Positions 688-63,475 of a stretch of 64,000 nt of DNA are shown here, in pieces (the stretch's first letter is position 1; every line of letters begins with the position of its first letter). The notes under the pieces are model-generated. The model was not told the DNA's origin. It did not search any database and saw only the letters and a list, made by a program, of their open reading frames with translations. Origin of the DNA: Turnera subulata (lineage: Eukaryota > Streptophyta > Magnoliopsida > Malpighiales > Passifloraceae); NCBI GenBank assembly GCA_028386065.3, contig JAKUCV010006157.1, positions 34,058-98,057 on the forward strand, given 5' to 3'. A program made the position numbers and the translations under genes.

Positions 688-1505
688 CTATACAACAAAA
701 TCATACATACACATAAATGCACATATTCGGTATGCTATGACGCCAATACTACGAAATACACCCATCCCGATTCTTATCTGATATTATTATCTTTTATCGA
801 AAATAATTTTCCGAACGTATTTCCGAATATAATTTCGGTACTATACTTTAATTAAAACTCTTTTCAAAATATATTTTCATAAAATAATTATAATTCTCAA
901 AATATTAATCATCATAATTTTCCAGAAAATAATAACCTATTTATAATTTCTAGAAAATATTTTTACAGTTTTTATCTTTTTCTAAATATATAATAATATT
1001 TTCCAACACTAAAATTATAATTACCTTTAATTTCCAAAATACATATTCATATGCATATACCACAATCACAATTTTCCAGCCAAAATAATATACATTTTTA
1101 ATTTCCAGAAATTAATTTCAAGTTACATATATATTTTTTTTCCAATTTAATAATAGTTTCCAAAACAAAACTTAATTATTTAACCAAGTAAATATATTTA
1201 TATTTTATCAAACATACCAGATTTAAATTGGAATTAATTTACTCAAAATAACTATATATTTTTTTCAAAATTGAATATCAGATTATGTTTAAATAAATAT
1301 ATATATAAATATAGTTTTTTTTAATTAATCGGACTGGGCTGAATAGGACCAGGCCCAGGCTCGCACTGTGCAAGCCCAGCCGGCCCACGCCCAACCCAAG
1401 TCAACACAAGCCCACAACCCAGCCCGTTACTATACCCAAGCCCATCAAACCACAACCCGCGACCCGTTCTCACGAAACTGATTTTTGCCAAGAGTCGGGT
1501 CTTAC
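688..1505 (-). other. Predicted intron in LTR copy A1
   Basis: Read on the minus strand, the GC-rich block ends CCGGAG and is followed by GTAAGA (donor at 1505-1504). The AT-rich stretch then runs to TTGTATAG (acceptor ending at 688), after which the conserved GTTTTTGGATATCGGGC segment begins. The same two sites are found in the other family A copies, and the copy at 58650-60788 lacks the intervening DNA. The splicing itself is inferred. Confidence 0.6.
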
Positions 1506-2501: not shown

Positions 2502-4753
2502 TACTAGATGTCTAAGTGTATTCAATTTTATTATTTTCTTTTCCCTTGACTAGTTTCTACATTTCTATCATCCAACCATTATCTCATTATCCCGAGCAGG
2601 CTCGCAGCCTCTCCGCTCGTCTGGATAATAATCAATACCAAACTGTCATCACATAATAGTACTCCCAGTACTCAACTCTCACAATTCTATAGTCAACAAC
2701 AGCAATAGTCTTACTTACATCCATAATTCCAACAGCAACAATAATATCAGCAGCAACAATAATTCCAACAACGTCAACGACAACAATTATTAACCTAATT
2801 CATCACACAACAAACCACACACAACCATAAAGTATCATGCCAGCATCATTGGACACAGTAAGCAAACAACAACTTGATATCACGGGATGTAAATAAATAT
2901 TTACTTAACCTCACCTTAGCCGATTATCAAATACGGAATCCTCAACAGGTTCCAAAGCCGGTTCCACAGGATCTGCTCGATATCGATTCCTAAATAACAA
3001 ATAACAAATGCACACACAAGATGCACATAATCGGTATGCTATGATGCCAATACTACGAAATAACCCATCCCGGTTACTTATCTTTTATTATTATCTTTTA
3101 CCAAAAATATTTAACCGTACGTATATCCGAATATAATTCCGGTACTATACTTTAATTAAAACTCTTTTCAAAATATATTTTCATAAAATAATTATAATTT
3201 CTCAAAATAGTATTTACTATAATTTTTCTGGAATTTATAAAATATATATATATATATATATTTTCCATAATATCTCCATAAAAATTATTATACTTTCCAA
3301 ATATAGTTTCCAATTATTATTTTCTTTAGAAAACTCCATTTCCACAAAATATAACCATATAACTTATTTTTCCGATAATAAATACGAATTTATTGATATA
3401 CATATATATATTTTCTAAAGACAAAATACATTTCCATACCATTATATATTAACATAATAATTAATTTATTTGGAAATATTATTTGCGTTTACTACATATA
3501 TATTTCCAGAAATATTCCCAAAATTTTAATTTTCAAAACATATTTTCCAGATTTTATTTTTATTACTTATTATTATTATTTATTTTTTTTTTAAATTTCC
3601 GGACTGGGCTAAGTGGTACAAGCCCAGCCCAGAACTCAATCCCCCAAAACATCCAGACCACATTAGCCCATTCCCAAGCCCACATAGTTACCAACCCAAC
3701 AACACAGCCCAAATAAAATTATCCCACCAAACTCAACCCAACATGCCAAGCCCAAAAGCAACCCTAGCCCAAACCATAACCCACCCCTACAGCGCCAGGT
3801 CAGACCCGACCCGTGACCCATCCAAACCGGGTCAACATCTTCTCAAGGCTCACCTTGAGTTTGCAGAGGCGGCGGCGAGCGGTGGGCGGGGCAGCACAGA
3901 CGGCGTCGTCGCGGGAAAGAGGAAGGACGGGGGCGGCGCGGCGACTGCAACGGCGAGGCCTGCTGTGGCGGCGGCTGTGACGTGCTGGTGGTCGCTGCTG
4001 CAGGTCGTCCCGTCGTCGCGTGAGGTGGAGGCGGCGAGGAGAAGGTGCGGTTCGCGGGCGGCAGGGGCGGCGGATGGAGAACACCGCTGCTGGAGGAGGA
4101 CGGCGAGGTGGTTCGCGTGGCTGTTGGTGGTGGCGGTCTCGGCAAGGGTGGTGGCGGAAGGGAGGAGGAGAAGAGAGGAAGGCGACGGTGGCTATCGGTC
4201 GCGGTGGGAGGTGGCAGCTGCTCGGTGCAGGGGAAGAAGAAGAGAAGAGGAAAAGAGAAAAGAAAAAGGGAAAAAAAAAGGAAAGAAAGGGAAGAGGAGT
4301 GGCTCGTGTGTGTGTGGTCTCCAAGGTGGTTGGGTTCACGAGAAGAGAAGAGGAGAAAAGGCAGGTCACGGGTATACGGGTCACGGGCACACAGGAGGAA
4401 GACGACAGGGAGAAGAGAAAAAAAAAGAGATAGAAAAGAGAAAAAGAAAAGAAAAGAAGAAAAGAAAGAGAGGCGGGGGCAAAATCGTAATTTCCCGTCC
4501 CGAGTCCAAAAATATGACTTGGGCTCGAAAAATCCGATTAATCCTCCTGAGCGTTGCCCAACTCTCGGAACTGAAAACCGAGGCTCGGTTAGTCGGAAAG
4601 ATACTCCCGAGCGCGGGAAAACCCTCGGTTTTGAAAAACGACTCCCGATTTACCGTAGTAAATTAATTACCCAAGATTAATTCAATAGTAAATCACGGTA
4701 AAACGACTTTTACAGTCCCAGTAAAAATTCAAATTTTTACCGGGGCCTTTACA
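2502..4753 (-). mobile_element. Family A long LTR, copy A2 (interrupted by A1)
   Basis: The minus-strand LTR starts TGTAAAGGCCCCGG at 4753 and follows the order of the family A LTR at 60972-63436, until it is interrupted at 2501/2502 by the insertion of copy A1. It contains a GC-rich block (about 3854-4220), an adjoining purine-rich tract on the plus strand (4220-4480) and an AT-rich block (3090-3600). Long ORFs on both strands of the GC-rich part (for example 3743-4666) reflect base composition, not a recognised protein. No internal retrotransposon sequence is visible on its right side, so it is a solo LTR or a remnant. Confidence 0.75.
2990..3853 (-). other. Predicted intron in LTR copy A2
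   Basis: On the minus strand a donor ACTCAAG|GTGAGC lies at 3854/3853 and an acceptor TTATTTAG|GAATCG at 2990/2989, bracketing AT-rich sequence of 864 bp. Downstream the short second exon ends CGGCTAAG|GTGAGG at about 2930, as in copy A1 and the plus-strand solo LTR. Positions agree with the other family A copies. Confidence 0.6.
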
Positions 4754-6987: not shown

Positions 6988-7994
6988 AACCAACTAACCC
7001 TCTGCCCATGACACCACAGAACTAGTCTCTAACCATCTAGTCGTACCACTACTTTCCAAGTGACAAATATATCATCATCTCAAATTCCAGTTCGATCCAT
7101 TACTCTTTCATCAATTTCCCAATTTCTATTATCTCAGATTAATTCCACAGACTCAATCTCTTATCTCAAACTCATGACACAAATTATTCAAAATTAACAG
7201 CTCAGCATTATTTCCAACATGTCATACACAAATCTATCACAAACCAACAACAGCACCAACAATTCCACAGCAATCAGGTAATAGTCAATAATTATTCCAG
7301 CAGATCAATCTAGCAACAAAAATACACAAACAACAAAGAAACACACACAGCATTACGAGCACATATCAGGGTTTATCCATCCTCACCTGATGTGTCTCTG
7401 AAATTGCTATCCGGTCAAATCCCGATACCCTATATGTACATATAGGAACACAATAATCACTTATAATGCACAACATAATGATTACGCATGATACCGGTTT
7501 TAGAAATAGTTACACGGCTTGTCTTATTCCAAGTCTAATTCCTATTATTTCCATGTTTTCCTTTAATATGAAATTAGCCTCTTTAATCGATATACCAGTC
7601 ATACTCGATCTTTAAGTTGAAAACCGAAACCGAGCTCCAAGCCGATATCCCGGCCCTTTAGCCCTTTGTCGATAAGGGAAAACATAAACATATTAAAAAA
7701 AATACATATATAAATATACACATATATTTACACATAAATCGATACTAGATTAAACGTAGATCTAGTGTGACCATACTTATGCATATATAGTAGATAATTC
7801 CTTTTTAGCCGTATATGTATTTATGTGATAAATCAAGTTGTAACTTCATTATTTAGCTAAACATAAATCTAGTAGGATATATATATATATATGGTCATTT
7901 ATGAATATATGTTTATAATTCCTAGATAATCATATTTATATTTTTTTAAGCTTAGATTTGACAACTAAATCAAGTAATTAAGTATAACTGGCCT

Positions 7995-10900
7995 TGTAAC
8001 GCCCCGGTTTTCCGTTTTTGGATTTATAAAGAAAATTCCGAGTTCCGGTAATGGAAATAAAATTAATTTATTTTCCCTTCAGATTTATTAATTTTAAGCG
8101 GTAATATGTCGCTTTTGAGCTTTGTCCGACGTAAAACGAGTTTCGGGAAGAAACGCAGCGTAACACGTAGTTTCGGTTTAAACTACGTTGTTTTGGGGGG
8201 GTTTAAAAAAAAAAAAAAGTCAACCTGGCGGGTTAACCCAGCCAGACCAGACGACACGTCGTCTGGCTGGCTAGGTCAAGCCCAGCACAGGCGCGCCCCT
8301 CCTTCCCTTTTTCTTTTTTTCTTTCGTTTTCTTATCTCCTTCAACTTTTCTTTCTTTCTGCCCGTTACTTCCCCACCTAGCCGCCGCCGCCTCAACGGCC
8401 ATGTTTCCCATTATCTCCTCTCGTTTTCCTATCTTCTTCTCCCCTCCATTTTGCCTGGCAACTCTCACGATTCCTTTCCCTCTCTTTTCTTTTCTTCCAT
8501 CTCGTCTTCTTCCCTTCCTCTCACAGAACCCGTCGCCGCCACCATACCTTCTGTTCTCTTTCTCGTGTCGCCGCCGCAGGGACACGAAGCCGCCGCCACC
8601 ACCACTAGTCGCAGAGGAGGCTGGGACGAGGGCTGGCGTGTGCAGAATCGACGAGGCCACCAGTGAGTCGTGCCTTCGACTCCTCCAGTAAGCACCACCT
8701 TGGGTGTTATTTGGTAAGCCACACATCCCTCTCTTTGTTCTTCAAATGGAGTTTTTTTGTGTTGGTTGTACCAAGTGTTGATTTGGATTTCCTTGGCTTG
8801 GCGGCGGATTGTTTGTTGTTGTTGGGTGTTTTGCTGGTGGATTGTGGCGGGGTTTGGTGCTCGGAGGGAGGTGTTGCCGGTTGGTGTGGTCGGATTGCAG
8901 TGTTGTTGTTGGTGTTGGTTTTGGTTTGAATCGAGTGATTGAATGGATGGTGGCAGTGCGTGGTGGTTGCTTCCGGTGAAGCTGTAGAAGTTTTTCCTGC
9001 GGGTTGGCAGTGTTTTTCCGGGTAAGGAATTGTTGCCATAGTTTGCTAAATTTCGTTTTATGCCTGCGGGTGTTGTATTTGAGCTGTATACCCTGTTGGT
9101 TGTTGTTGTTCTGGACAATGGCAGTTGTGTGGGGTTGTTTTTGGGCTCCGGCGAAATTCCGGCGAAGTGACCGGAATCCGGCGAGAACGCACTGTTCCGG
9201 CGAGGGCTCGGAAATTTTCCGGCGAAGGCTCGAATTCCGTCCAACGACATATGTTTCTTGCTTAGACGGTATAATCCTTCGTTTTGTTTCGGTTATGTCA
9301 TGTATTTAAATTTTGGAAAATTATTTACCGAAATACATTTATATTTATACATTTAGTGAATTGTGGATTACCGAGAGTGGAGAGATAGAGTGTGTGGCCG
9401 GGGAGAGCTTACCGACACGAATAGATCATAGGCCGATCAACTCTTGGGCTCGGAAACGACTTTAGGACGGTTTTAGGAAAAACCGAGCCCGGGCCCAATA
9501 ATCTCAATTAAAAGCTTAGGATGTTTAATTGGACTTAAAGTTACGGACTTAAGATCTAATCACGGATAAGTAAATTCACGGACATTAAGAACGGGCTCAA
9601 AGCCCAATTTCATAATCGGTGAAATACGGACTTAAGGAAGTGGGCCCTCGGCCCGGAATTTGTGATTTAAGATTTAGTGGGCCTTAGGCCCGAGAATTTG
9701 TTAATTGACTTAAACCGATGAACCTTAGATCCCTAATCGTGGGAGTTATGGAAGAGAAAATATCCTTTTGGACTTAGGCCCAGAAATCTTATAATTGGAT
9801 AGTTAGGGTCGGGAGGTACTCGATTAGAGCATACCATTAGCATACATACATATTTTATTCCTAAAAATTTGTTTAGCGATTATATTATGTGTCGGTATTC
9901 AGGCACGGGAGATACCTCGAGAACTGTGGACTCGGATCGGGGAGAAGTCATAATCTGCATTTTTAAGGTGACATTACAAGTCTTTTTATATATGTTTTGT
10001 GAATGCATGTTGGTGTGGTTTGTTTGTTTACTTGCCTTGTTTGCTACATGCGATGATTGGAATTGTATGCCTGATTGATCTCACATGTCTAAATTTCTAC
10101 ATGAAAAACTGTTATGAAATATAACATGTAAACTGCTTTGGTGATAATGTATGGTTATGGGCCGCAGGCCCGGATTAAACAGGGACACATACCATTCACA
10201 CTTCCCTGAAAGACATAATGTACTTCAACAGAAAAGTAAAGTGTAATTAAGAATAAAATACTAAATTCTACTGTGGCGTCAGTTGGTAGCCCCGAGGGAG
10301 GGTGGGTACCATCGGGTCACATTATGTTGTTTAGCATGCCCAGGGGATGTAGGTGCACCCCTGGAAGACTTGCACCGGTTAGGTGTGTCTGAGTGCACCC
10401 TCAGGTAGCTAGCGGCCACTCGAGATTTATCAGTGGTTTTTGGCCTCAGAATCTACCCCTTCTGAGGTTCGACATTTGGGTTTCACATCCTGATCTGATC
10501 AGATACGCTACCGAGACTTGACTCACAGTAGAGGGCCCATAATAATAAAAATATTAATAACGATAACAATAAAATAACACATTGAGTTCAGATAATACGA
10601 ACTATAACACAATAAAACATTTATGTGATGGTGTGTGATTCTGATTTGTTTGTATGCTGTACTTGTGCTCGTGAACTACTCACCCTACGAGCATGACTTC
10701 ACTTTCATGTATACTTAGACTTTTAATGTTCACTGAGTAGCCGACTAACATAATCGCCATCGTTGTTTTTTTCAGACTTAGTTAGCGTGCAGACTCACTT
10801 ATACCTTCGACTCGGAGATCAGACGCAGTCACTTCAGCAGGTAGTTGTGCATTATCTCTCGGTGGGATCCATAGGGCCATATGCATGATATTTTCTATCT

Positions 10901-11216
10901 TGAGTATTATTATTATTTTCATCTTCCGCTACATGAGAAATAATTCGTGATGTCATAAATGTTTTACACTTATATCGACGGTGTGCCGGAGTTTAATTTT
11001 GTGATATTATGTCGGCGTGATGCCGTGATGGCTTACTACTTGTTAAGCCGGTTGATCTCATTTACTTTTATGACATCTCGTTGTTAACACACTTTCATGG
11101 AAAATGTTTGTATGCCGAAGTATCGGTTTTTGTACCCCGGGTGTCAAGAGTATTTTGTTAACTTTTTTTTCATTTAATTATTTTATTTTTATTTAATTGG
11201 GGTACGGGCTCTCACA
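7995..11216 (+). repeat. 5' LTR of the family B element
   Basis: It begins TGTAACGCCCCGG and ends GGGCTCTCACA. A pyrimidine-rich leader (8290-8540) and CCG-rich block (8530-8660) are followed by three predicted splice steps: donor TTATTTG|GTAAGC (gt at 8714) with acceptor GGTATTCAG (ending 9902); a 65-nt exon with donor TTTTAAG|GTGACA (gt at 9968) and acceptor TTTTTTTCAG (ending 10775); and a donor CAGCAG|GTAGTT (gt at 10841) that could join an acceptor TTCATATAG (ending 11349) just before the gag start. Splicing is inferred. The 261-aa minus-strand ORF at 8465-9250 recurs in the 3' LTR only because the LTRs are copies. Confidence 0.9.
8240..8272. repeat. Strong hairpin with ACGT centre in the 5' LTR B
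   Basis: The left arm AGCCAGACCAGACGAC (8240-8255) pairs with GTCGTCTGGCTGGCT (8258-8272) with a single bulged base and a 2-base loop. It lies just upstream of the pyrimidine-rich leader and is unchanged in the 3' LTR (15320-15352). The centre holds ACGT, the core bound by bZIP/bHLH factors. Confidence 0.75.
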
Positions 11217-11218
11217 GT

Positions 11219-11230
11219 TGGTAGCAGAGC
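11219..11230 (+). other. Primer-binding site (initiator Met tRNA type)
   Basis: TGGTAGCAGAGC starts two bases after the end of the 5' LTR. It differs at one position from TGGTATCAGAGC, the complement of the 3' end of plant initiator methionine tRNA that primes most plant Ty3/gypsy elements. Confidence 0.8.
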
Positions 11231-11357
11231 GGGCTTCAGATCCTTGGTTTTAAAAGAAAAGTGACCTTAAATTACTAGTGATTTTAGTGTTAAATCCGGT
11301 TTCCTATTTTGAGACTTAAAAGTGTTTTGACTTGTTTGCATTCATATAGGCATCACT

Positions 11358-12671
11358 ATGGATCCACCGCAAGACCGGCACAATGCTGATGGGCTGGATG
11401 AACTTCCTAGTCATGTTTCCGACTCATTGTCGGTAATGCCAGTCCCTGATGGTCAGGGAAATATTGGTGCAGCTGGAGCACAGAATGCAGTGCCGTTAGT
11501 ACCTCCTGGTATGGATGCAGCGACGCAACAACAGTTTCAGGCTTTCCTACAGTGGCAGCAGTTTCAACAGTTTCATCAGCAACAACAGGGCGCCCAAGCC
11601 GTTCCGGTCGCACCTGTTGTAGCACCTGTGGTTGGTGGTATGGAGAGTGGTTATAAGCACATGGATAAGACAGCAGTTGAGATGTTCTCAGGAGAGAGAA
11701 TCACAGCAAGGGTGGCCGATGATTGGTTCCGCCAGGTGGAGAATGTTTTGGAGAAATTCACGTACACACCAGAGCACTGGGCTCGATTTGCAGCACACAA
11801 GTTCATGGGTTACGCATTGAGCTGGTGGCAAGGACTTGTTATGGACCTACCTAGACCAGTGGTGATGCCATGGGCAGACTTCAAGGACAGATTCTACAAG
11901 GAGTTCGTTACCGTTGGATTCTTGGAAGACCAGAAGAAGCAGTTTTTTGAGGTGAGACAGGGACCCGAAGAGTCAGTTTCTGCATTCAGAATCCGATTCA
12001 GTATTCTTCTTTCTTACGCCAGGGAGTTTGTGCCCGATGAGGTGACACAGCGTAGGCGATTTGTTGACGCTCTACGCCGCGAGTTGGCGATCGTAGTGGC
12101 TGGTGGGAGACACCGGACTTGGGAGGCTGTTTGTGAGGCTGCTTTTGATGCTGAGAGGATTCAGTTGATCGGGCTGGAGGCCCGGCCAGCCGAGCGGGAG
12201 AGACAGTCAATAATGCCGGGACAGAAGAAACAACATTCTGGTCCGGGTAATGCAAGTTACATGAGTCGACAAGGTTCTTCCTACCAAGGTTCGAAGAAGT
12301 TTCGAGGACAGAAGTATCAGGGTGGACCGGGCAAGTCTTCGGGAGGGAAGCCTTATCAGTCTGGACCTCAGAGGCGGGGCCCTTGGACTAGACCTCCTAT
12401 TATATATTGGTATTGCGGGAAGCAGGGACACCCCCAGTCAGAGTGTTACACGAGGATTCATGATAGTGGAGGTAGTGGGTCCCAGTATACCGTACAGAAC
12501 TCCGTGGTTAATGGTACAGGTGCTTCTGCTTCGAACAAGAGTGGTGGACACCAGGGAGGCAGTCGAGAGAGTGCTGGAGCCCCGAGCCGCGGAGGTGCTG
12601 TTCGACCTATGGCGACTCCCAGGGTGTACTCTATCATTCGAGAGGAAGCTGCTGACGCTCCAAAAGAATGA
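11358..12671 (+). CDS. gag: Gag of family B retrotransposon (437 aa), degenerate zinc knuckle
   Basis: An uninterrupted ORF of 437 codons. The first 90 residues are Gln-rich (around residues 55-80). A retrotransposon gag (capsid) domain spans about 100-270, with the family signatures WWQGLVMDLPRP, WADFKDRFYKEF and ARFAAHKFMGYALSW. It is followed by a basic Gly/Ser/Gln-rich nucleocapsid region. The zinc knuckle near residues 350-366 reads YWYCGKQGHPQSEC, so the first Cys of CX2CX4HX4C is Tyr. The ORF ends ...EEAADAPKE and stops where Tekay/Del polyproteins would run on into the protease, so pol was removed at the gag-protease border. A splice acceptor (TTCATATAG) lies 8 bp before the ATG. Gag would form the particle that packages element RNA. 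Confidence 0.85.
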   Translation: MDPPQDRHNADGLDELPSHVSDSLSVMPVPDGQGNIGAAGAQNAVPLVPPGMDAATQQQFQAFLQWQQFQQFHQQQQGAQAVPVAPVVAPVVGGMESGYKHMDKTAVEMFSGERITARVADDWFRQVENVLEKFTYTPEHWARFAAHKFMGYALSWWQGLVMDLPRPVVMPWADFKDRFYKEFVTVGFLEDQKKQFFEVRQGPEESVSAFRIRFSILLSYAREFVPDEVTQRRRFVDALRRELAIVVAGGRHRTWEAVCEAAFDAERIQLIGLEARPAERERQSIMPGQKKQHSGPGNASYMSRQGSSYQGSKKFRGQKYQGGPGKSSGGKPYQSGPQRRGPWTRPPIIYWYCGKQGHPQSECYTRIHDSGGSGSQYTVQNSVVNGTGASASNKSGGHQGGSRESAGAPSRGGAVRPMATPRVYSIIREEAADAPKE

Positions 12672-12964
12672 GATGTCTCGAGTGGATTCACTTTACTTTG
12701 TATTGTTGATTTTCTTCTATTATTATCGTTATTATGTAAGACTTCGAGACGAATTATTAATAAGAATGAGATGTTATCCACGCTTGTTTTGGAACATTCA
12801 CTTAAGTGGAAATTTATACCATAATTAAGCAGAAATATAAATATTATTAAAACTAACAATAATATTACAAAGGGGAAACATTACATTGATCTTGATATTT
12901 TATATTTTAATAAAAAGAGAAATATTACAACGATTTTGATATTTTATTAAAATGGAAAATACAT
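12672..12964. other. Internal spacer of the family B element
   Basis: AT-rich sequence after gag with no coding signal recognised on either strand. It occupies the place where pol would begin in an autonomous relative. Confidence 0.5.
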
Positions 12965-13648
12965 CTAACGGTTCGGAACGACATTGACACGGAAGCTGTT
13001 GGGATCGCTGTTGATGTTGACCGTGACTCTGTCGCTCCACGAGAGCCACATGCCGCCTCTGTCGCGCTGGCCAGGAATCTCGAACCGGTTAGCTTGAGGG
13101 AATCGGAGAGGGATGAGACCGTGATCGTCCCGAGGTTGCCACTGCGTCTCCGTCAGAAGAACCATATTCGGTTTGTACTGGTTCTTCAAGTCCCTCAGCG
13201 TACGTGTGAACTCTTAAGCGCGCCTTGCTACTCCCCTGCAGTTCCACACCAGCAGCCGTACCTTTGGCCAAGTTGGAGGTAAGCGCGTCATTCTGGGTAT
13301 GCTTTGGGCCGTCATCGCAAGCTGGTAGTATGCACCTTGCTCCACCGTCTGGCAAGTGGACTCCAAGTTGAACTCCTGAAGCCTATCGGAGATGAAGAAC
13401 ATCACGGTATTTGCCGATCCGTAGTAGGATGTCCTCAGCGTTCCGTGATCCTCCAGGAAGAACACCTCTTCCATTGGAGTGACAAAGAACCGCGAGGAGT
13501 AGAGCTCGTCGACGGAGACCAGCCGGGGCATCCTGCCGAGCTCGTTTGGTAGTTTTTCGGCACGTTCATTGACCATACTGTAGGCCAATCGGTTCCTTCT
13601 GCCAAGGTTGGCACCCTCGACAAAGAAAACTGATGATGGGGCAGGCAT
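12965..13648 (-). pseudogene. Opposite-strand ORF ending in a LINE-type endonuclease (EEP) fragment, one in-frame stop
   Basis: On the strand opposite to gag, one frame runs from ATG (13648) to TAG (12965), broken by a single in-frame TAA at 13214-13216. The first 125 codons are not recognised. The region from about residue 130 contains LLVWNCRGVARR, then after the stop TLRDLKNQYKPNMVLLTET and a later GGMWLSWSDRVTV. This order (N of WNCRG, E of TET, then a GG-W-L-W stretch) is that of the N-terminal half of the endonuclease/exonuclease/phosphatase domain of plant LINEs; the half with the catalytic D and H residues is absent. A TATA box lies 108 bp upstream. It may be a captured LINE piece fused to another ORF. 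Whether it is expressed is unknown. Confidence 0.5.
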
Positions 13649-13755
13649 TGTGTTTGGGCGTATAGGTGTTTGGTTTTCTGGAGTTTTGAGGATTTTTAGT
13701 CAGGGCGTAGGATTGCCTTAAAAATGCTTTGATGACTTACTTCTCACCATACTGT

Positions 13756-13763
13756 CTTTTATA
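13756..13763 (-). promoter_or_regulatory. TATA box upstream of the opposite-strand EEP-like ORF
   Basis: TATAAAAG on the minus strand, about 108 bp before the ATG at 13648, with no other ATG-initiated longer ORF between. Spacing suits a 70-80 nt leader. Confidence 0.45.
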
Positions 13764-14487
13764 ACCTTAGGAGGAGCGTGTTTATTACGTTCAAATTTCA
13801 AGTGTCTGCGTTTTGAAATTTTACCGTTGCCTCATTTATTGCTTCGACACGCTATGTGTTTGTTGTTCGGGCAATAAATGCCAAAGGTTATCAGTCCTTC
13901 TCTACCTTACAATTTTCAATTTCCCGGGCTACTTCAATTTGGTTTCTTCAAGACTTGTTCCTACATCTTTGTCACATGCACTCGTGATCGTTGTGGCTAG
14001 ACCGTGTGGACCACACCTCGAGTAGAGTGCGTATGCGACAAGCTTACAGCTGTTCGGACAGCGCGGAGAGGTGCGTGATGAGACAGACATTTTTTTTGGC
14101 TCATACGGACAATTGTGGACAAGTGGGTAACGTGTCTTTCGAGGGTCACAGGACGTTCCCGTGATCATCGCCTTGCCAGTTAACGGGTATCTTTTCACGA
14201 GGCTAACAGACGTCACCATTAACTGTGTACGTTACGTTTTCGGGATCGAGGATGTTCATAATTGATCCAGGGCGCCAAACATGGAAACATGTTTTATTTT
14301 AACCTTTTAATGTTTGACTCTATTAAACGAGTCTTGCTTTATTTATAATTTCCTTATGATTAATTTTATACCTTTATTGCTGGTTTTAATCTGTTTAACA
14401 CGAGATTTCGCTGCAATAGAGTTTCGATTTAAGAAGAAAGCTCATTTTATTGATTTCATAAACATCTTACAACAAAGGAAAAGCACT
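13764..14487. other. Spacer between the two opposite-strand ORFs
   Basis: A 96-codon minus-strand frame (13929-14219) and a plus-strand frame (14314-14607, partly over the next ORF) exist, but neither resembles a known family. No further feature is supported. Confidence 0.4.
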
Positions 14488-14886
14488 CTACGGAGTTACA
14501 TGATGTTTCAGATCGGTTACAAGTTTCTGTATATTCGCGACCTGAGAAGAGAGTCCCATATAGGCCAGTTCAATTTGCATCACTGCAGTGTGGACATTCT
14601 TCAGTGAAGTGTCCAGTTGCTTCATTATCTGCAGTGGTGTGCTGGACTCAGCTGCTGCCTTGCCTTTCCTATCTTTTACATCCTTGTTACCAGAAGGTCC
14701 TTCCTTGCTTACACGCTTCTTTCGCCGTCTTGGAGGAATCACCATATGCTCCTTTAGGCCGATGATGCTGGTCTTGAACCGCTTCTTAGGAGGTTCCTCA
14801 TTGGAGCTTGTCGGGAAAGCTCTACCCCCGATGTAACTGTTATCCTCTGAGTCAGAGGTAGTACGGGATCTTAGTGGTGAGTCCAT
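14488..14886 (-). CDS. Opposite-strand additional ORF of family A/B elements (132 aa, basic, NLS-like)
   Basis: A 132-codon ORF on the strand opposite to gag, 190 bp from the 3' LTR. The product starts MDSPLRSRTTSDSEDNS (acidic/Ser-rich). It has two basic clusters that look like nuclear localisation signals (PPKKRFK near 33-39, and RRRKKR near 53-58), a Lys/Gly-rich linker, and a C-terminal heptad-like helix (about 85-130: IMKQLDTSLKNVHTAVMQIE and onwards). A diverged copy lies at 63623-63984 beside the LTR of a family A element, on the same relative strand. Conservation of frame, start and upstream TATA box between two families argues for selection. Antisense ORFs next to the 3' LTR are known from some plant Ty3/gypsy lineages; the function here is unknown. 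Confidence 0.65.
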   Translation of the reverse strand: MDSPLRSRTTSDSEDNSYIGGRAFPTSSNEEPPKKRFKTSIIGLKEHMVIPPRRRKKRVSKEGPSGNKDVKDRKGKAAAESSTPLQIMKQLDTSLKNVHTAVMQIELAYMGLSSQVANIQKLVTDLKHHVTP

Positions 14887-14919
14887 AGTTGTGTGTGAGT
14901 TCTCAATTATTGGGTTGTT

Positions 14920-14927
14920 TTTTTATA
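14920..14927 (-). promoter_or_regulatory. TATA box of the opposite-strand additional ORF
   Basis: TATAAAAA on the minus strand, starting 41 bp upstream of the ATG at 14886. The copy at 63581-63588 has TATAAATA starting 42 bp upstream of its ATG. Upstream both share a GCTTATACCCTTA(A/T)GCG block. The short spacing implies a leader of only about 10 nt. Confidence 0.6.
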
Positions 14928-15060
14928 GGCAGGAGAAACACCGCTTAAGGGTATAAGCGACATCTCGCAATAAGTTCGGACACCTGGTGGAGGATACCAG
15001 AAACTTATCGTGGTAGGACCTACGGACTTGATGATTGAATTTCGAGGACGAAATTCTTTT

Positions 15061-15075
15061 TAAGGTGGGTAGAAC
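15061..15075 (+). other. Polypurine tract region of family B
   Basis: TAAGGTGGGTAGAAC directly precedes the 3' LTR. The preceding TTTCGAGGACGAAATTC block is also present next to the LTR of the family A element (63437-63475, reversed), showing the two families share their 3' end. Confidence 0.7.
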
Positions 15076-18000
15076 TGTAACGCCCTGGTTTTCCGTTTTT
15101 GGATTTATAAAGAAAATTCCGAGTTCCGGTAATGGAAATAAAATTAATTTATTTTCCCTTCGGATTTATTAATTTTAAGCGGTAATATGTCGCTTTTGAG
15201 CTTTGTCCGACGTAAAACGAGTTTCGGGAAGAAACGCGGCGTAACACGTAGTTTCGGTTTAAACTACGTCGTTTTGGGGGGGTTTTAAAAAAAAAAAAGT
15301 CAACCTGGCGGGTTGACCCAGCCAGACCAGACGACACGTCGTCTGGCTGGCTAGGTCAAGCCCAGCACAGGCGCGCCCCTCCTTCCCTTTTTCTTTTTTT
15401 CTTTCGTTTTCTTATCTCCTTCAACTTTTCTTTCTTTCTGCCCGTTACTTCCCCACCTAGCCGCCGCCGCCTCAACGGCCATGTCTCCCATTATCTCCTC
15501 TCGTTTTCCTATCTTCTTCTCCCCTCCATTTCGCCTGGCAACCCTCACGATTCCTTTCCCTCTCTTTTCTTTTCTTCCATCTCGTCTTCTTCCCTTCCTC
15601 TCACAGAACCCGTCGCCGCCACCATACCTTCTGTTCTCTTTCTCGTGTCGCCGCCGCAGGGACACGAAGCCGCCGCCACCACCACAAGTCGCAGAGGAGG
15701 CTGGGACGAGGGCCGGCGTGTGCAGAATCGACGAGGCCACCAGTGAGTCGTGCCTTCGACTCCTCCAGTAAGCACCGCCTTGGGTGTTATTTGGTAAGCC
15801 ACACATCCCTCTCTTTGTTCTTCAAATGGAGTTTTTATGTGTTGGTTGTACCAAGTGTTGATTTGGATTTCCTTGGCTTGGCGGCAGATTGTTTGTTGTT
15901 GTTGGGTGTTTTGCTGGTGGATTGTGGCGGGGTTTGGTGCTCGGAGGGAGGTGTTGCTGGTTAGTGTGGTCGGATTGCAGTGTTGTTGTTGGTGTTGGTT
16001 TTGGTTTGAATCGAGTGATTGAATGGATGGTGGCAGTGCGTGGTGGTTGCTTCCGGTGAAGCTGTAGAAGTTTTTCCGGCGGGTTAGCAGTGTTTTTCCG
16101 GGTAAGGAATTGTTGCCATAGTTTGCTAAATTTCGTTTTATGCCTGCGGGTGTTGTATTTGAGCTGTATACCCTGTTGGTTGTTGTTGTTCTGGACAATG
16201 GCAGTTGTGTGGGGTTGTTTTTGGGCTCCGGCAAAATTCCGGCGAAGTGACCGGAATCCGGCGAGAACGCACTGTTCCGGCGAGGGCTCGGGAATTTTCC
16301 GGCGAAGGCTCGAATTCCGTCCAACGACATATGTTTCTTGCTTAGACGGTGTAATCCTTCGTTTTGTTTCGGTTATGTCATGTATTTAAATTTTGGAAAA
16401 TTATTTACCGAAATACATTTATATTTATACATTTAGTGAATTGTGGATTACCGAGAGTGGAGAGATAGAGTGTGTGGCCGGGGAGAGCTTACCGACACGA
16501 ATAGATCATAGGCCGATCAACTCTTGGGCTCGAAAACGACTTTAGGACGGTTTTAGGAAAAACCGAGCCCGGGCCCAATAATCTCAATTAAAAGCTTAGG
16601 ATGTTTAATTGGACTTAAAGTTACGGACTTAAGATCTAATCACGGATAAGTAAATTCACGGACATTAAGAACGGGCTCAAAGCCCAATTTCATAATCGGT
16701 GAAATACGGACTTAAAGAAGTGGGCCCTCGGCCCAGAATTTGTGATTTAAGATTTAGTGGGCCTTAGGCCCGAGAATTTGTTAATTGACTTAAACCGATG
16801 AACCTTAGATCCCTAATCGTGGGAGTTATGGAAGAGAAAATATCCTTTTGGACTTAGGCCCAGAAATCTTATAATTGGATAGTTAGGGTCGGGAGATACT
16901 CGATTAGAGCATACCATTAGCATACATACATGTTTTATTCCAAAAAATTTGTTTAGTGATTATATTATGTGCCGGTATTCAGGCACGGGAGATACCTCGA
17001 GAACTGTGGACTCGGATCTGGGAGAAGTCATAATCTGCATTTTTAAGGTGACATTACAAGTCTTTTTATATATGTTTTGTGAATGCATGTTGGTGTGGTT
17101 TGTTTGTTTACTTGCCTTGTTTGCTACATGCGATGATTGGAATTGTATGCCTGATTGATCTCACATGTCTAAATTTCTACATGAAAAACTGTTATGAAAT
17201 ATAACATGTAAACTGCTTTGGTGATAATGTATGGTTATGGGCCGCAGGCCCGGATTAAACAGGGAAACATACCATTCACACTTCCCTGAAAGACATAATG
17301 TACTTCAACAGAAAAGTAAAGTGTAATTAAGAATAAAATACTAAATTCTACTGTGGCGTCGGTTGGTAGCCCCGAGGGAGGGTGGGTACCATCGGGTCAC
17401 ATTATGCTGTTTAGCATGCCCAGGGGATGTAGGTGCACCCCTGGAAGACTTGCACCGGTTAGGTGTGTCTGAGTGCACCCTCAGGTAGCTAGCGGCCACT
17501 CGAGATTTATCAGTGGTTTTTGGCCTCAGAATCTACCCCTTCTGAGGTTCGACATTTGGGTTTCACACCCTGATCTGATCAGATGCGCTACCGAGACTTG
17601 ACTCACAGTAGAGGGCCCATAATAATAAAAATAATAATAATGATAACAATAAGATAACGCATTGAGCTCAAACAATACGAGCTATAATACAATAAAACAT
17701 TTATGTGATGGTGTGTGATTCTGATTTGCTTGTATGCTGTACTTGTGCTCGTGAGCTACTCACCCTACGAGCATGACTTCACTTTCATGTATATTTAGAC
17801 TTTTAATGTTCACTGAGTAGGCGACTCACATAATCGCCACCGTTGTTTTTCAGACTTTAGTTAGCGTGCAGACTCACTTATACCTTCGACTCGGAGATCA
17901 GACGCAGTCACTTCAGCAGGTAGTTGTGCATTATCTCTTGGTGGGATCCATAGGGCCATATGCATGATATTTTCTATCTTGAGTATTATTATTACTTTCA

Positions 18001-18293
18001 TCTTCCGCTGCATGTGAAATAACTCGAGATGTCATAAATATTTTATCTTTATATCGGCAGTTAGCCGGAGTTGATTTGTGATATTATGTCGGCGTGATGC
18101 CGTGATGGCTTACTACTTGTTAAGCCGGTTGATCTCATTTACTTTTATGACATCTCGTTGTTAACACACTTTCATGGAAAATGTTTGTATGCCGAAGTAT
18201 CGGTTTTTGTACCCCGGGTGTCAAGAGTATTTTGTTAACTTTTTTTTCATTTAATTATTTTATTTTTATTTAATTGGGGTACGGGCTCTCACA
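15076..18293 (+). repeat. 3' LTR of the family B element
   Basis: Nearly identical to 7995-11216, including splice-site motifs and the hairpin (15320-15352). It ends GGGCTCTCACA at 18293, followed by the target duplication GGCCT (18294-18298). Differences are mainly single-base transitions plus a few short indels. Confidence 0.92.
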
Positions 18294-19936
18294 GGCCTTT
18301 AATTATTAACTTTCCAAGTATAAATTAAATAAACCGAAATTTAAATACTATAGGCCTTTTTAATAATCCAAAAATAAAATTAAACATCAAATTACAAAAC
18401 GTAAATGGAATTAAAGGTTAGTATTTGATTAATTAAATTAAATCTTTATTTTAATTAAAGAATAAGAGTCTGGGTTCATTAACGTTGTTCGGGTTTCGTT
18501 TAATGATGCATATGGTCATAGGCTCGGGTTTACCCAACGGATTCATTTCCGGGCTCGCCGGAAAATTCCCGGGACGCCGGAGACTCGCCAGATTCCGGCA
18601 GCTACTGTTCACGCAGTCCTCAACACCCCTGTTACTGTTCACCGTGAAACGTCAAACCCACAGCACCATCTGCTACCATTCCTCTAGCAGCAGAACAACC
18701 CAATACCTCCACCAACCCACGACGTCCATCAATCAAAACAGCCTATTCATCATACCCCCCAATCATCCACCCTTCATCAACTCGATTCAGATCAACCCAA
18801 CGAAAATCGATTAGCAACAATCCTCAACACGAAAGAAAGAGCAGAAAGGAAGAAGAAGCTCGGTCAAAGACTCACCAATCTGGGCTTTGCCGGCGACGAT
18901 GTCACTCCTTTGTTCGGAAGAGGGAGCCGGCGAATGTGCAGAGGCAAGGGAGAGGTCGACTCCTCTACGTCCGGCGGTGGCTCGGCTCAATTCCTCGGTG
19001 GTGGCGGCGACGTCGTCTGGCTGCAGCGGCTGTGGAGAGGACACGACGGCGTCGTCGCGTCGAAGAAGGAGGAGGAGGAGAGGGGTCGATGTTGCATCCG
19101 GCGCCTCTGGCAGCGGCGGCTTGGTTGCAGGGGCAGAGAAGGAAGGGAAAGAAAGGAAAGAGAAGGTCACGGGCTGGTGGTTCAGGGTGAGGTGAAGAGG
19201 AAGAAGGGAGAGGAGAAGGGAGAGATGGTGGCCAGAGAGAGGGTGCAGGGAGGAGGCGGCTGGTAGGGAAATCGGAAGAAGGAGAAGAGAATTTAAGAGG
19301 AGGAAAGGTGGAAGGAGACAAGGGAGATAAAAGAAAAGATAGAAAAGAAAGAAAGAGAGGAGGAGGGCCGGTTAGTTCACGGGGAAAACAAGAAAAGAAG
19401 GGGGGGTCCGGCGGCTGAGGAAGGAAAATGGAGAAGAAAAGAAAAGAAAGGAGAAAAGAAAGGAAGGGGAGGAAAAGAAAGAAAAGAAGGAAGAGAGGTG
19501 GGGCCCGCGCGGCTGAAGGAAAACCCGGGAAAGAGAAAGAAATGTAACCGGGAAAGAGGAAGAGAAAGGAAAGAGGAGAAGGATAAGTGGCTCGGGGCAA
19601 GCCTCATATGGACGGTCCGGATTCTCGCGTCAGAATCTCGTAGACGCAGGGATACTCCCGTCTTTCCGACAAATTCCGTCCCGAGTCCAAAAATACAACT
19701 TGGGCTCGGAAAGTCCGATTAATCCTCCTGAACGTCGTCCAAGTCTCGAAATTGAAAACCGAGGCTCGGTTAGTTAGAAAGACACTCCCGAGCGCGGGAA
19801 AACTCTCGGTTTCAAAAAACGACTCCCGTTTTACCGTGAATTAATTACCCAAGATTAATTCATTCGGTAAATCACTGTATAACGACTTTAACAGTCCCGG
19901 TAAAAATCCAAATTTTACCCGGGCTGTTACACAAAT

Positions 19937-39565: not shown

Positions 39566-39575
39566 GAAACCAAAT

Positions 39576-39587
39576 GCTCCGCTACCA
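39576..39587 (-). other. Primer-binding site of the gypsy element
   Basis: On the minus strand TGGTAGCGGAGC begins three bases after the LTR. It matches the initiator Met tRNA complement at 10 of 12 positions. Confidence 0.6.
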
Positions 39588-39590
39588 AAT

Positions 39591-58050: not shown

Positions 58051-58649
58051 TGAAACGCCCCGACCCGTATTTACCGTACATAGTAAACACGTGCCGGAAC
58101 TGTAACGACAGTAAATACAACAAGTAACACAGCCCAATGGCCCAAAGATAATATCAATGAAAATATCAAAGAAACCGGCCAACGGCCCAATGTCACGTCA
58201 TAAACATCCAAATTTGGCCCATCGGCCCAACATCAAAACATGTCACCTAAACTCAGGGACCCAAAATATAGCACAGCGGAAGCAATTTTAAACCCATTAT
58301 CATCATATGCAAAACCTGATGCAAACTAATGGATCTGAGTCCTGTCCGAGGGATAACGCCGCAGCCTGTCTGGAATGCATCACACCTGAACCACAAATAA
58401 CTCAACCTACGGGATGAAAGCCCGCAGGTGAGAGGTGAGCCCGAAGTGCCCACCGGGTAAAACCCATAAGCAAATATACATATACAAACAACCGTAAATT
58501 CCCAAGTCACATCACCAACAATTAACTAAGGTTCTCACGAACCTTAAATGACACACTTGTGATTCTAGACACGCTATTCCAATTTTATTATCAGGGCCCC
58601 TATCACAAGTTAAATGGTGGTCGTCGCCTGGTAGTCAAGCTAGCTAGCC

Positions 58650-60788
58650 TGTAACAGCCTGGGTAAAAATTTAGATTTTTACCGGGACTGTTAAAGCCGT
58701 TATACAGTGATTTACCGAAATAATTAATCTTGGGTAATTAATTCAAGGTAAATCGGGTATTGTTTTTTGTAACCGAGGCTTTTCCCGCGCTCGAGATTTT
58801 TCCGTGGATTTTTCGGGCCTAAGTCAGTATTTTTCGGGTCCCGGAATCTTCGAAAAATCACACCGAAAAATACACAAAGGGGGGATATCAGTTGTTTTCT
58901 GGTCCGGACGGGACACGACTACGTGATTGAGTCGCGCAGCCGCCTCCCACTGCACAACCTGTGACTTACCTGTGCAGCCCGTGACCCTGCGTGTTCTTAC
59001 TTCCTTCATTTCCTGCAAAAACACACCCACACCTAGCATCACCCTTCTTTACTCTCTGCATCCCCTCACTGCCAACTACCCATTCCTTTCCTGCACCTAA
59101 GAAACCAGAAGAAGAAAAGAAACTAAAAAAAAAAAGAGAAAACAAACAATACACAGACACACCACGCCAACCAACCAACCGGCCGCCACCACCATCAAAG
59201 ACCCGACGCCACCACAGGCCACCTGCACCACCATCTCTTGGTCATTTCCTCTCCCTGCTGCCACCGCACCGCCGCCCTGCTCTGCTTGCAACTGCCGCCA
59301 GACGAGACAAGCTCGGCTCCACCAAAAGTCGAACAACTCGCCACCGCCATGAGCAGCAAATCGAGGAGCAAAGCATGAACTTCGATCGTGCACTGGAGGC
59401 CAACCACACCTTCCTTCTCCACGGCAAGCATCGACCCCGTGACCGGTGCTTTCTTGCTCGTCGCTGCAGGACGTACGCCGCCGCCCCACTTTCCTCTCCA
59501 CGCTCGACGGCCCACAACCGGCGACGACCGGGTAGCACGCCTGCAGCCACCGCCTCACGCCTCCCTACGCCTCCACCTCACCGTCCCTGCTCGCGTCGCT
59601 CTGCCAACCGTGCTGCACCGCCGTTCGTCGCGCCACCCGCCGCTGCTAGGTTTGATATCGGGCAGTTTCCCGAGGAGCCGGTTTGGGACCGGTCATTGTC
59701 TCCGGAGTTGGGTAATCGGCTAAGGTGAGGATGGATTTCCTTCAATATGTGCCTATATTACTCGGTTATTGTGTTTGATGATTATTGCTCTGTTGGTTGT
59801 TGCATTTGTTGTGGTTTAGTTCGGGATGTTTATCCCAGTGTCCTAATTATTTTTGGGATATTTATCCCCGTGTTGAGTTTTGGATATTTATCAATGTGTC
59901 TTTTTGATATAAAGTATAATGGATTAAATAATAAAATGTGATAAGGATGTCGATCCTTGATTTTGGATTAGGATGTCTATCCCGCTATTTTGGTTAGGGA
60001 TGTTGATCCCTGTGATTTGTTTTGAATGATGATAATATAATTGTCACGTCGTAAGTAGTGGTACGACTCGATGGTTTAAGACTGTTTCGTGGTGATCGTG
60101 ACCTTGGGTTACTTGTGATAAGCATGTCTATGCTTCGGATGTCTATCCCGTGATTATTTTTGGGATGTCTATCCTTGGGTTTGTATTTTTGGGATGTCGA
60201 TCCCTGGGTTCTCTTGGATTTGGTATGGCACCCGAAATATGTTGATAACCAGGTCTGACCCCTAGCTTATCCGTGACGGGGCCCGAAAAGATAAAATTGG
60301 AAATTGGATTTTTATTTGAGTCTTTTTGGTCTTGGACCGGTTTTGGGTCTTGTCTTTTGGTTTGGTTGTTATGCTTGTTTTTTACCTTGAGTAATTATAG
60401 AGTTGCATATTGATTGTCTATCCTTCGTCGGTGAGCACTTCGGACTCACCCCTCACCTGCGGGCTTTCATCCCGTAGGATGAGTTATTTGTGGTACAGGT
60501 ATGTTGCATTCCAGACAGGCTGCGGCGTTATCCCTTGGACAGGACTCCGATCCATAGTTTGCATCAGTGTCGCATACAGTGTCTTTGTGAGTTATTAAGT
60601 CTTCCGCTGTGCATTATATTGCTATTGTTGGGCCATTGGGCCGGTTATGACGTTATTGATGTTTTTATTTTGGGCTGTTGAGCCCGAGTTTCTGTTGTAT
60701 GCACTGTATGCTGGGCTTTATTTGGTCAGGTCGTTACAGTTCCGGCACGTGTTTACTGTGTATGGTAAATACGGGTCGGGACGTTTCA
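58650..60788 (+). mobile_element. Family A solo LTR, intron-less version (2.14 kb)
   Basis: TGTAACAGCCTGGG...GGACGTTTCA, with the 5-bp duplication TAGCC at 58645-58649 and 60789-60793, inserted in opposite orientation into another family A LTR. It is about 1.1 kb shorter than its neighbour because the AT-rich intron is missing: the GC-rich block ends CCGCTGCTAG at about 59649 and the next base begins GTTTGATATCGGGC, the sequence that follows the intron in the other copies. The second donor (CGGCTAAG|GTGAGG, about 59726) and the downstream acceptor (TTTGTGGTACAG|GT, about 60498) are kept. The 245-codon ORF 58991-59728 crosses the junction but resembles no known protein. Confidence 0.88.
59823..60204. 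repeat. Hairpin array GGGAT-N4-ATCCC in the solo LTR
   Basis: Eight intact or nearly intact motifs: 59823-59836, 59855-59868, 59945-59956, 59971-59983, 59997-60010, 60137-60149, 60162-60174 and 60191-60204, plus one decayed at 59882. Centres vary (GTTT, ATTT, GTCG, GTCT, GTTG) while the stems are retained. Confidence 0.85.
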
Positions 60789-61445
60789 TAGCCCGTGGAC
60801 CCCGCCCTGGTTCCTCCACATATAACTGGCACAAACAGTGAGCAGACCCCAAGCACACTCTCCCCCAGTGCCTAAAATAATAACTGGTACAGACAGGGAG
60901 CAGACCCCAAGCACACTCTCCCCCAGCACCATAAAAATAAGACTACCATCTGGCTGTTCCAACATTTAACCATGACTTACTAGATGTCTAAGTGTTTCCA
61001 TTTTATTAATATTACCATCTTAGTCTTGTTACCACAAAACTGTTAACCAACCATCAACTCATTATCCCGAGCAGGCTCGCAGCCTCTCCCCTCGTCTGGA
61101 TAATACAATCTTATTCCAACTGTTTTCTCATACCAGTACCCCCGGTACTCGACTCACACAATTTCACAGTCAACAACAACAATAATAACTTACTTATACC
61201 AACAATTCCATTATCATCATTAACATCAACAGCATCAATCATCAATTTAATTCATCACAAGACAACCATTCACAGCCTCAAAGTATCATACCAGCAAACA
61301 TCGCACATAGAAAACAAACAACAACTTGATATCACGGGCAGTATATAAATATTTACTTAACCTTACCTTGGCCTGTTACTTAACTCTGAAGACAATATCG
61401 GGTCCAAAGCCGCCTCCTCGGGAAAATGCCCGATATTTCAAAACC

Positions 61446-62526
61446 TATACAACAAAACAACATGCTCACATAAATGCACATAATTGGTATGCTATGATGC
61501 CAATACTGCGAAATAAACCCATCTCGGTTCATATCCTTTATTATCATCTTTTATCGAAAATATTATACCATATGTATATTCGAATATAATTTCGGTACCA
61601 TACTTTAATTAAAACTCTCCTTTAAATATTTTTTTTAATAGAGTAATTGTAAACTCTCCTTTAAATATTTTTTTTAATAGAGTAATTGTACTTTGTCTTT
61701 CAAAATAATAACAATATAATTTTCCTAGAAATTATATCATATATATGTATTTTTCCAAAATTATTTCAATAGAATATATTACTTGCCAAAATATAATTAC
61801 CAATTATTATTATCTTTAGAAAACCATATTCCCAGAAAAATTAATCATACAAAATTATTTTCTGAAAATAAATACGAATTAATAAATATACATATATATA
61901 TTTTACAAAGGGTCAAGTACTTTTCCGAACAATTTTTAATATCAACATAATTATAAATTTTTAGAAATATTAATTATGTATACTATACACATTTTCCAAA
62001 GGTAGTTTCACAATTTTCTAGAAAAATAATAACATATATATAATTTTCCAGAATATATATATCATGCTGAAAACATAATTATAATTTTCAAAGCAAAAAT
62101 ATAATTATCTTTATTTTCAAAGAATCAAAGTATATATATACATTTATATATATTTTTTTAAAATACCAAAATCCATACTAATAGATTTTCCCATATTTAA
62201 TAATAATAATTACCATATTTAATTTTTTTTCCAAAATATATACTTGATTTAATTAATTATCTCTCTTCTTTTTTTTATTGTTTTTTTAATTACGAACTGG
62301 GCCAAACAGTGCTGGCCCAACCCACTGCATAGACCAGACCCAAGCTCCAAGTAGGAGCCCAGGTATAGGCCCAGGCGCAGGCCCAGGCGCACACAAGCCC
62401 AGCTCCATCCCAACTCTAACCCAACGCACCCAGCCCAAGGTTCGCGACCCGGTTGAAGCGTCGGGTCAAACTCGACCCACATCATGACCCATCCGGGTCG
62501 TCACCACAAGCGGGTCTGCAGCTCAC
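61446..62526 (-). other. Predicted intron in the 3' LTR of the right-hand family A element
   Basis: The donor CCACCTAG|GTGAGC (62527/62526) and acceptor TTGTATAG|GTTTTG (61446/61445) bracket 1081 bp containing the AT-rich block. The same interval is missing from 58650-60788. The second exon ends AGGCCAAG|GTAAGG near 61364. Confidence 0.65.
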
Positions 62527-63436
62527 CTAGGTGGACGGCGCGACATGTGAGGTGGCGGCTGAGAGGAGGCGACGGTGCACGCAAGGCGAGGCGGCACAAG
62601 ACGGGCGATGGCGAGGCGATGCGAGGAGGGCCGGCTTCGTGGCTGTTGGAGCGGCGGTCGATGGATCTGCAGGTGAAGGTCGACGCGAAGAGGTTGCACT
62701 GCGGAGGGGACGGCGTCGGGTTCCTGCGAGTTGGGTCTGCTGCGACCTGGAGGAGCGGTGGCTACTCGTCTTCGGGTTGTTGTGAGTCTCCTCTCGGCGG
62801 CGTTGCTGCAAGAAGAAAGGAAGGAGAAGGCCATCGGGTCGTCGGGTTGGTGGTGTGCGACGGCGGTCATCCTGGTGGAGAGGCGTGTCGGGTGGTGCTG
62901 GTCACGATGGTCGGTGGCAGGTCGTGGTGGTGTCGGGTGGCGAGGACTTCGGTGGTGGATCAGTCGGTTGTGTGTGTGTGTTGTTCTTTATATTTTTCTT
63001 CCTTTTTCTGGTTTGTGAATAAGGCAGGGTGTGTAGAGAAAAAAAAATGCAGAAGAGAAGATGTGAAAACTGAAGACACGGGAAGAAAGAAAAACAAAGA
63101 AGGTCACAGGTTACACAGGAAGACACGGACTGCACAGGCAAAGGCGGCTGCGTGACTCAATCATGCAGTCGTGTCCAGAATGGACCAGAAAACAACTGAT
63201 ACACCCACTTAGTTATTTTTCGGTGTGATTTTTCGAAGATTCTGGGACCTGAAAAATACCAACTTAGGTCCGAAAGATCCACGGAAAAATCTCGAGCGCG
63301 GGAAAAGACTCGGTTTCGAAAAACGACGCTGGATTTACCTTGAATTAATTACCCAAGATTAATTCATTCGGTAAATCACAGTATAGTGACTTTTACAGTC
63401 CGGTAAAAATACCAAATATTTACCTGGGCTGTTACA

Positions 63437-63475
63437 GTCTACCCACCTTAAAAAGAATTTCGTCCTCGAAATTTC
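63437..63475 (-). other. Polypurine tract and conserved 3' border of the right-hand family A element
   Basis: On the minus strand TTTCGAGGACGAAATTCTTT leads into TTAAGGTGGGTAGAC and then the LTR start. It is nearly the same as 15040-15075 of family B. Confidence 0.75.

Follow-up and report, generated by a model that had tools for sequence, protein, structure and literature searches.

Probable introns within the long terminal repeats of a Turnera subulata retrotransposon family and their precise absence from some copies

In a 64,000-nucleotide stretch of the Turnera subulata genome (contig JAKUCV010006157.1, here C5578:34058-98057; hereafter the window), a solo long terminal repeat (LTR) lies inside a second LTR of opposite orientation and lacks a block of more than one kilobase that its neighbor possesses. 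Was this block removed from an RNA, as an intron, before the RNA was reverse-transcribed, or was it lost from (or never present in) the DNA? The original prediction, which was made from the letters of the window, took the solo copy to be a spliced one nested in its unspliced relative. We have approached the question by searching the genome of the same plant (518.7 Mb in 7,125 contigs) for copies of the LTR, and find that what looks like an intron is a trait of the LTR family and that its exact absence recurs in copies with different sequences upstream.

The solo LTR and its missing intron

The solo LTR (58650..60788, plus strand, 2,139 bp) was delimited by its TG...CA ends and by its alignment to the surrounding host LTR. 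It is a complete LTR with no internal region, and the target site duplication TAGCC, read directly, stands on both sides of it (58645..58649 and 60789..60793). The host LTR (58051..63436, minus strand) amounts to 3,243 bp when the nested solo copy and one copy of the duplication are excluded. That the two belong to a single family, as had been proposed, is borne out by their identity at both ends, 83% at the start (358 alignment columns) and 72% at the end (410 columns). The block missing from the solo copy is intron 1 of the host (61445..62526, minus strand, 1,082 nt); it runs from CCTAG|GTGAGC, with exon 1 ending at 62527, to TTGTATAG|GTTTTG, where a 78-nt exon 2 begins (61367..61444, minus strand; vertical bars mark the boundaries of exons).

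The comparison within the window left the 5' breakpoint doubtful, because the exon 1 sequences of host and solo LTR align poorly. This doubt was removed by the copies elsewhere in the genome, because AG|GTGAG is found at the solo's exon-1 end in 15 of the 16 copies that could be traced to that point (the exception is L042) among the matches to an exon-1 query (best 40 of 165 candidates scored, the solo being one of the 40). Relatives that have the solo's exon 1 read ...CGCCGCTGCTAG|GTGAGTGG, relatives that have its exon 2 read TTGTATAG|GTTTGATATCGGG, and the solo LTR itself reads ...CGCCGCTGCTAG|GTTTGATATCGGG across the join. The solo and its exon-1 relatives part company exactly at AG|GTGAG, and relatives with an identical exon-2 start have TTGTATAG or near variants of it 5' of that start. 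The junction, GCTGCTAG|GTTTGATATCGGG, is at 59649..59650 (plus strand), the very point at which the intron-bearing relatives are split. It is followed by exon 2 (59650..59724, 75 nt, plus strand, defined by the positions of the acceptor and of the next donor) and by a second intron that the solo copy has kept (59725..60477, 753 nt, plus strand, AAG|GTGAGG ... CCCGTAG|GATGAG), whose ends are defined by the joined exons 2 and 3 of contig C1041, described below. The gap thus falls exactly between a GT donor and a TAG acceptor, as originally predicted. The idea of a spliced copy nested in its unspliced relative holds as to position, the solo LTR being indeed inside an intron-bearing member of its family, but not as to descent: its closest intron-bearing relatives sit elsewhere in the genome, and it was not derived from the LTR around it.

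A pattern composed of the acceptor AG and the start of exon 2, which covers both intron-bearing and intron-less copies, has 4,906 matches in the genome, against 22 for the reversed-pattern control. The common layout is a GC-rich exon 1, an AT-rich intron 1 (about 0.55-1.1 kb; 553-1,083 nt in 48 copies), a short exon 2, intron 2 and a conserved exon 3. When the solo's junction was used as a query (best 40 of 2,138 candidates scored), the solo was the only full-length match among the 40, and 38 of the other 39 matches start at, or at most 2 bases from, TAG|GTTTG. At 25 of the 29 junction-query loci outside the window, exon 2 is preceded by AT-rich sequence with an AG acceptor; the remaining four comprise two intron-bearing copies (L070 and L076), one without the intron (L061) and one whose match begins at the acceptor TAG (L068).

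Donor and acceptor were counted in 56 copies with a located acceptor: 25 of the 39 exon-1-query loci, the host LTR and two further window copies (B and C), and 28 junction-query loci. For 28 of the 56, the motif used for locating them prescribed AG|GTT and left the letters before AG free. Left out were copies whose exon 2 was not located (L010, L025, L032, L033, L036, L037, L041, L043 and L047) and, despite a located exon 2, L026 and L027 (mutated acceptor), L039 (which has the donor), L042 (which does not) and L044. The donor motif AG|GTRAG is present 450-1,250 nt upstream of the acceptor in 48/56 copies, the mean of 50 dinucleotide shuffles being 2.2/56 and their maximum 6/56, and the acceptor pentamer is TATAG in 52/56. 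All eight copies read for base composition have AT-rich introns and GC-rich exon-1 ends. An approximate donor weight table, intended for ranking sites, was left unused, and the motif count with shuffles took its place, because GTAA sites in the interior of the intron score as well as the proposed donor or better. With its conserved GT donor and AG acceptor on either side of a diverged interior, intron 1 is a trait of this LTR family.

Intron-less copies and a second intron

A pattern for intron-less copies, consisting of a G+C-type exon end, AG and the exon-2 start, has 42 matches in the genome. Since it misses two intron-less copies (on C1302 and C1041) and includes probable non-family matches (those on C1680, C2767 and C1998 are unlike the family by their letters, and a few others may be intron-bearing), the resulting figure, that intron 1 is absent from roughly 1% of the approximately 4,900 copies, is a rough pattern count. 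A first pattern, SSNNNNAGGTTTGATATCGGG, matched only the solo LTR and two probable intron-bearing copies (CGGTATAG) and was replaced because it required G or C at a position that is A in other exon types. We fetched 12 of the 42 matches with 45 bases upstream of each (nine from contigs with two or three matches and three single ones); exon 1 abuts exon 2 in all 12, with a G+C content of 0.58-0.76 at the junction. Altogether 18 intron-less LTRs on 17 contigs have been read, the solo included, and in every one the intron is absent and exon 1 meets exon 2 exactly at the splice position, as in a spliced retrocopy. The family accordingly falls into the two length classes with identical GT/AG breakpoints that had been anticipated (the 4,906-match pattern taking in both, the 42-match pattern the intron-less class), and gap ends off the splice sites, which would have spoken against splicing, were encountered once among copies with a located exon 2, in a 675-bp deletion (L026).

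The intron-less copies do not share a single exon 1. The LTR L061, on contig C3209, has an exon 1 of a type unlike the solo's and reads GAGCCCGAG|GTTTGACATCGGG. With this exon as a query (best 40 of 2,132 candidates scored), three matches, L078, L079 and L080, cross the junction; the intron-less L078 reads CTGAACCCGAG|GTTTGATATCGGG and L079 reads |GTTATGATATCGGG. Their intron-bearing relatives L081 and L083 read CTGAACCCGAG|GTGAGG, and all five intron-bearing copies fetched (L081-L085) have either CCGAG|GTGAG or CCGAG|GTGGG. We also clustered the last 50 nt of exon 1 from 54 intron-bearing and 17 intron-less copies, the maximum score of shuffled sequences being 10. At a score of 30, both intron states occur together in three clusters: one joins the solo to 14 intron-bearing copies, one has six intron-less and five intron-bearing members, and one groups L095 with L060 and L063. 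The nine intron-less ends outside these clusters comprise seven singletons and one pair. A fourth mixed cluster (L096) appears at a score of 24, and at 18 most of the types fuse into one. Because the exon-1 types differ and at least three of them include intron-bearing members, at least three independent losses of the intron are well supported by this sample of short exon ends.

Going beyond the original prediction, there is a second LTR intron and a copy without either of the two. Exon 2 ends in [C/A]AG|GTRAGG in 51/56 copies. A search for exon 2 joined to the exon-3 string within 5-35 nt gave three matches, all on C1041 and about 3.6 kb apart (control 0), that read GGCCAAG|GATGAGTTATTTG (GGCCAAG|GATGAG); copies with intron 2 read CCCGTAG|G(A/T)TGAGTT at exon 3 (26 occurrences, some of the loci overlapping). 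In the one C1041 copy that was read further upstream, exon 1 is likewise joined to exon 2, ...GCAAACTGAG|GTTCGGATATCGGG, and in its genomic DNA the three exons are joined with both introns precisely absent. An exact scan of viral contigs found no occurrence of the exon-3 string.

The intron-less pattern matches often come in pairs. There are two on each of C978, C1160, C1653, C1875, C2629, C2918, C3209, C3507 and C4341, and three on C5018; on all ten contigs they are on the same strand and about 3.6-7.8 kb apart, as expected if one spliced 5' end supplies both LTRs. On C3209 the stretch after the first LTR matches the start of the internal region in other elements, although the part just past the LTR end is missing, and it is because of this match that we take the two LTRs of this contig to belong to one element. 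No LTR start was found at the expected place, the U3 of the first LTR being missing or replaced; the second LTR (L061) is preceded by a polypurine tract. On C5018 and C1041 the pattern matches suggest arrays of the LTR-internal-LTR-internal-LTR kind, with three consecutive LTRs spaced at about 3.6-3.7 kb.

Origin of the intron-less LTRs

In the established retroviral scheme, the 5' end of the genomic RNA is the template for R and U5 in both LTRs. Very probably the leader of this family undergoes splicing, and from time to time a spliced genomic RNA is reverse-transcribed, so that both new LTRs inherit a spliced U5; we infer the splicing itself from genomic sequence. Transcription would start in exon 1 or upstream of it, and part of the leader RNA would have its introns removed by the spliceosome. 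Replication would mostly proceed from unspliced RNA, which would be why about 99% of the copies keep the intron. Occasionally, a spliced or half-spliced RNA would be packaged; its 5' end, copied first, would give R-U5 to both LTRs, and two intron-less LTRs would result. The solo LTR of the window would be the descendant of one such insertion, later reduced to a solo and with intron 2 kept. The recurrence of precise junctions thus lends support to the route that was originally envisaged, in which the leader would be spliced before reverse transcription.

Several observations weigh against this interpretation. The reversed-pattern control of the 42-match pattern has 11 matches. There are LTR pairs among the 56 copies, which are therefore partly non-independent, and the donor motif is absent from the searched interval in 8/56 (some of these may have a mutated or alternative donor). 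By an approximate table of plant donors, GTs within the AT-rich intron often score at least as high as the proposed one. With regard to the pairs, both LTRs were read on C3209 only, one member having been read elsewhere and the rest being pattern matches, and the spacings of 5.2, 5.4 and 7.8 kb (C4341, C1160 and C1653) overlap those of intron-bearing elements. Finally, AG|GT (for the solo, TAG|GT) is common to the two splice-site regions, so that any single junction could stem from a deletion or a template switch at a short repeat.

The first of these two possibilities, an ordinary deletion in the DNA between short direct repeats (TAGGT or AGGT) that would match the splice sites by coincidence, seems to us improbable. 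TAGGT is indeed common to the donor and acceptor sides in the solo's relatives, and deletions do occur in the family: the LTRs L026 and L027 (contig C6709; a pair 97% alike, both with the changed acceptor TATAAG) differ by 675 bp that are gone from L026 across exon 1 and the intron, an example of how an ordinary deletion looks in this family, and the region lost after the first C3209 LTR corresponds to a part that is bracketed by two GGGCGTT repeats in a relative, L013. However, the L026 deletion, the sole off-site one seen among copies with a located exon 2, ends away from the splice sites. The precise junction is found in several exon-1 types, 13/17 of the intron-less copies sharing only AG (plus GT) with the acceptor side and 4/17 sharing TAG. 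One long relative contains 1,308 pairs of identical 5-mers at distances of 800-1,200 bp; with so many on offer, and with the exact splice-type junction recurring in other copies, chance is a poor explanation. Moreover, the precise loss extends to the second intron, and to both introns in one LTR.

Scarcely better placed, and if anything a shade behind deletion, is the suggestion that the reverse transcriptase skipped the intron by switching templates at AG|GT, either within one RNA or between two that were packaged together. L009 to L023 look mosaic, their exon-1 types pairing variously with downstream types (L009, for example), which suggests that template switching is frequent in the family. 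Nevertheless, this would give no reason for landing repeatedly on GT/AG in different contexts and at two introns. That the ancestral LTR was the short one and that some copies gained the AT-rich block by insertion is hardly credible, for, although the block is highly variable in length and sequence, it is present in roughly 99% of the copies by pattern count and stands at the same place in the sampled subfamilies (window copy D included), with the intron-less copies scattered among intron-bearing sisters.

Packaging or expression signals within the intron may be what causes it to be retained. A rather tentative extension, to which we give somewhat less than an even chance, is that the LTR introns decide between two fates of the RNA: the unspliced leader would replicate, perhaps by way of a packaging signal in the intron, and the spliced RNA would have another role, such as translation. 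Intron-less LTRs would be rare leaks of the spliced pool into replication, the family persisting because the intron is needed for packaging and the intron-less lineages staying small.

Related systems and other features of the window

Deltaretroviruses and foamy viruses have a splice donor in the R region and an acceptor far downstream; as here, the donor is in LTR-derived RNA, but the whole intron is not within their LTR. Our search of the open-access literature (titles and the starts of abstracts, in part the best-ranked matches, with subscription papers mostly outside it) found no LTR intron accompanied by genomic intron-less LTRs. A close parallel is provided by human LINE-1 and its SpIREs (spliced integrated retrotransposed elements), which have splice junctions within the 5'UTR; a spliced retroelement leader RNA is copied back into the genome, as we propose here, but L1 has no LTRs and its spliced copies have reduced promoter activity and are generally dead ends (PMC5860796). 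In the Turnera family, by contrast, the LTR intron is a conserved trait and intron-less LTRs appear to stand at both ends of an element.

Among plant LTR retrotransposons, BARE1 of barley has spliced and unspliced RNA pools, but its 104-nt intron is at the end of gag; according to the authors of that study, the spliced RNA must be excluded from replication, its DNA copies not being amplifiable (PMC3735527). Ogre and EVADE also have functional introns, although these serve subgenomic RNAs of the coding part, and introns are said in the same review to be generally absent from such elements (PMC12786077). For Diaspora of soybean, splice donors were predicted in the LTR, and env was suggested to have been lost when a wrongly spliced RNA was copied; these splice sites are predictions, however, with acceptors at the start of gag, and that paper states that, as of 2005, LTR elements were not known to have introns upstream of gag (PMC1142308). 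A pair of introns in the LTRs of a family with thousands of copies bears on how LTR elements exclude spliced RNA from replication; genome sequence by itself allows the escape of spliced RNA into replication to be counted, separately for each intron, and to be related to the success of subfamilies.

Within the window, the host LTR is preceded by what we take to be a polypurine tract (~63437-63460) and is therefore probably a 3' LTR; the coding part of its element falls outside the window. The family is presumably a Ty3/gypsy chromovirus of the Tekay-like kind, to judge by its polypurine-tract and LTR-start motifs alone. There are three further family LTRs in the window, all in minus-strand orientation. 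The window start truncates B (1-2501), B in turn cuts C (2502-4753), and a 10.3-kb element splits D (6.2-19.9 kb). Their first introns, all on the minus strand as well, are at 688..1505 in B (818 nt, CGGAG|GTAAGA ... TTGTATAG|GTTTTT), 2990..3853 in C (864 nt, CTCAAG|GTGAGC ... TTATTTAG|GAATCG) and 7430..18875 in D (1,141 nt of its own sequence, interrupted by the element at 7995-18293). Including the host (818-1,141 nt overall), these introns are 66-72% A+T; a donor follows the GC-rich exon 1 in each (CCTAG|GTGAGC in the host and GATTG|GTGAGT in D), and the acceptor before the short exon 2 is TATAG in the host, B and D and TTTAG in C. Exon 2 is 75-78 nt long in four of the window copies and 43 nt in D. 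A 247-codon stop-to-stop frame that crosses the solo's junction was considered as an LTR protein spanning exons 1 and 2, and was dropped as a chance product of GC-rich sequence because the other four window copies share no common frame and because of the short exon 2 of D.

The element inside D (7995-18293) has 3.2-kb LTRs that are 97.8% alike, a gag (PF03732) and the target duplication GGCCT; its LTR likewise seems to have a GC-rich leader, donors near LTR positions 670-720 and an acceptor, TATTCAG|GCACGGG, near 1908. Elsewhere in the window, a pair of LTRs of about 473 bp (97.5% alike) at 34621-40061 flanks minus-strand gypsy-type pol fragments (RT, RNase H, integrase and SH3_Tf2-1), and 50054-51124 is occupied by a tandem array whose units, each about 230 bp long, are 86-88% alike.

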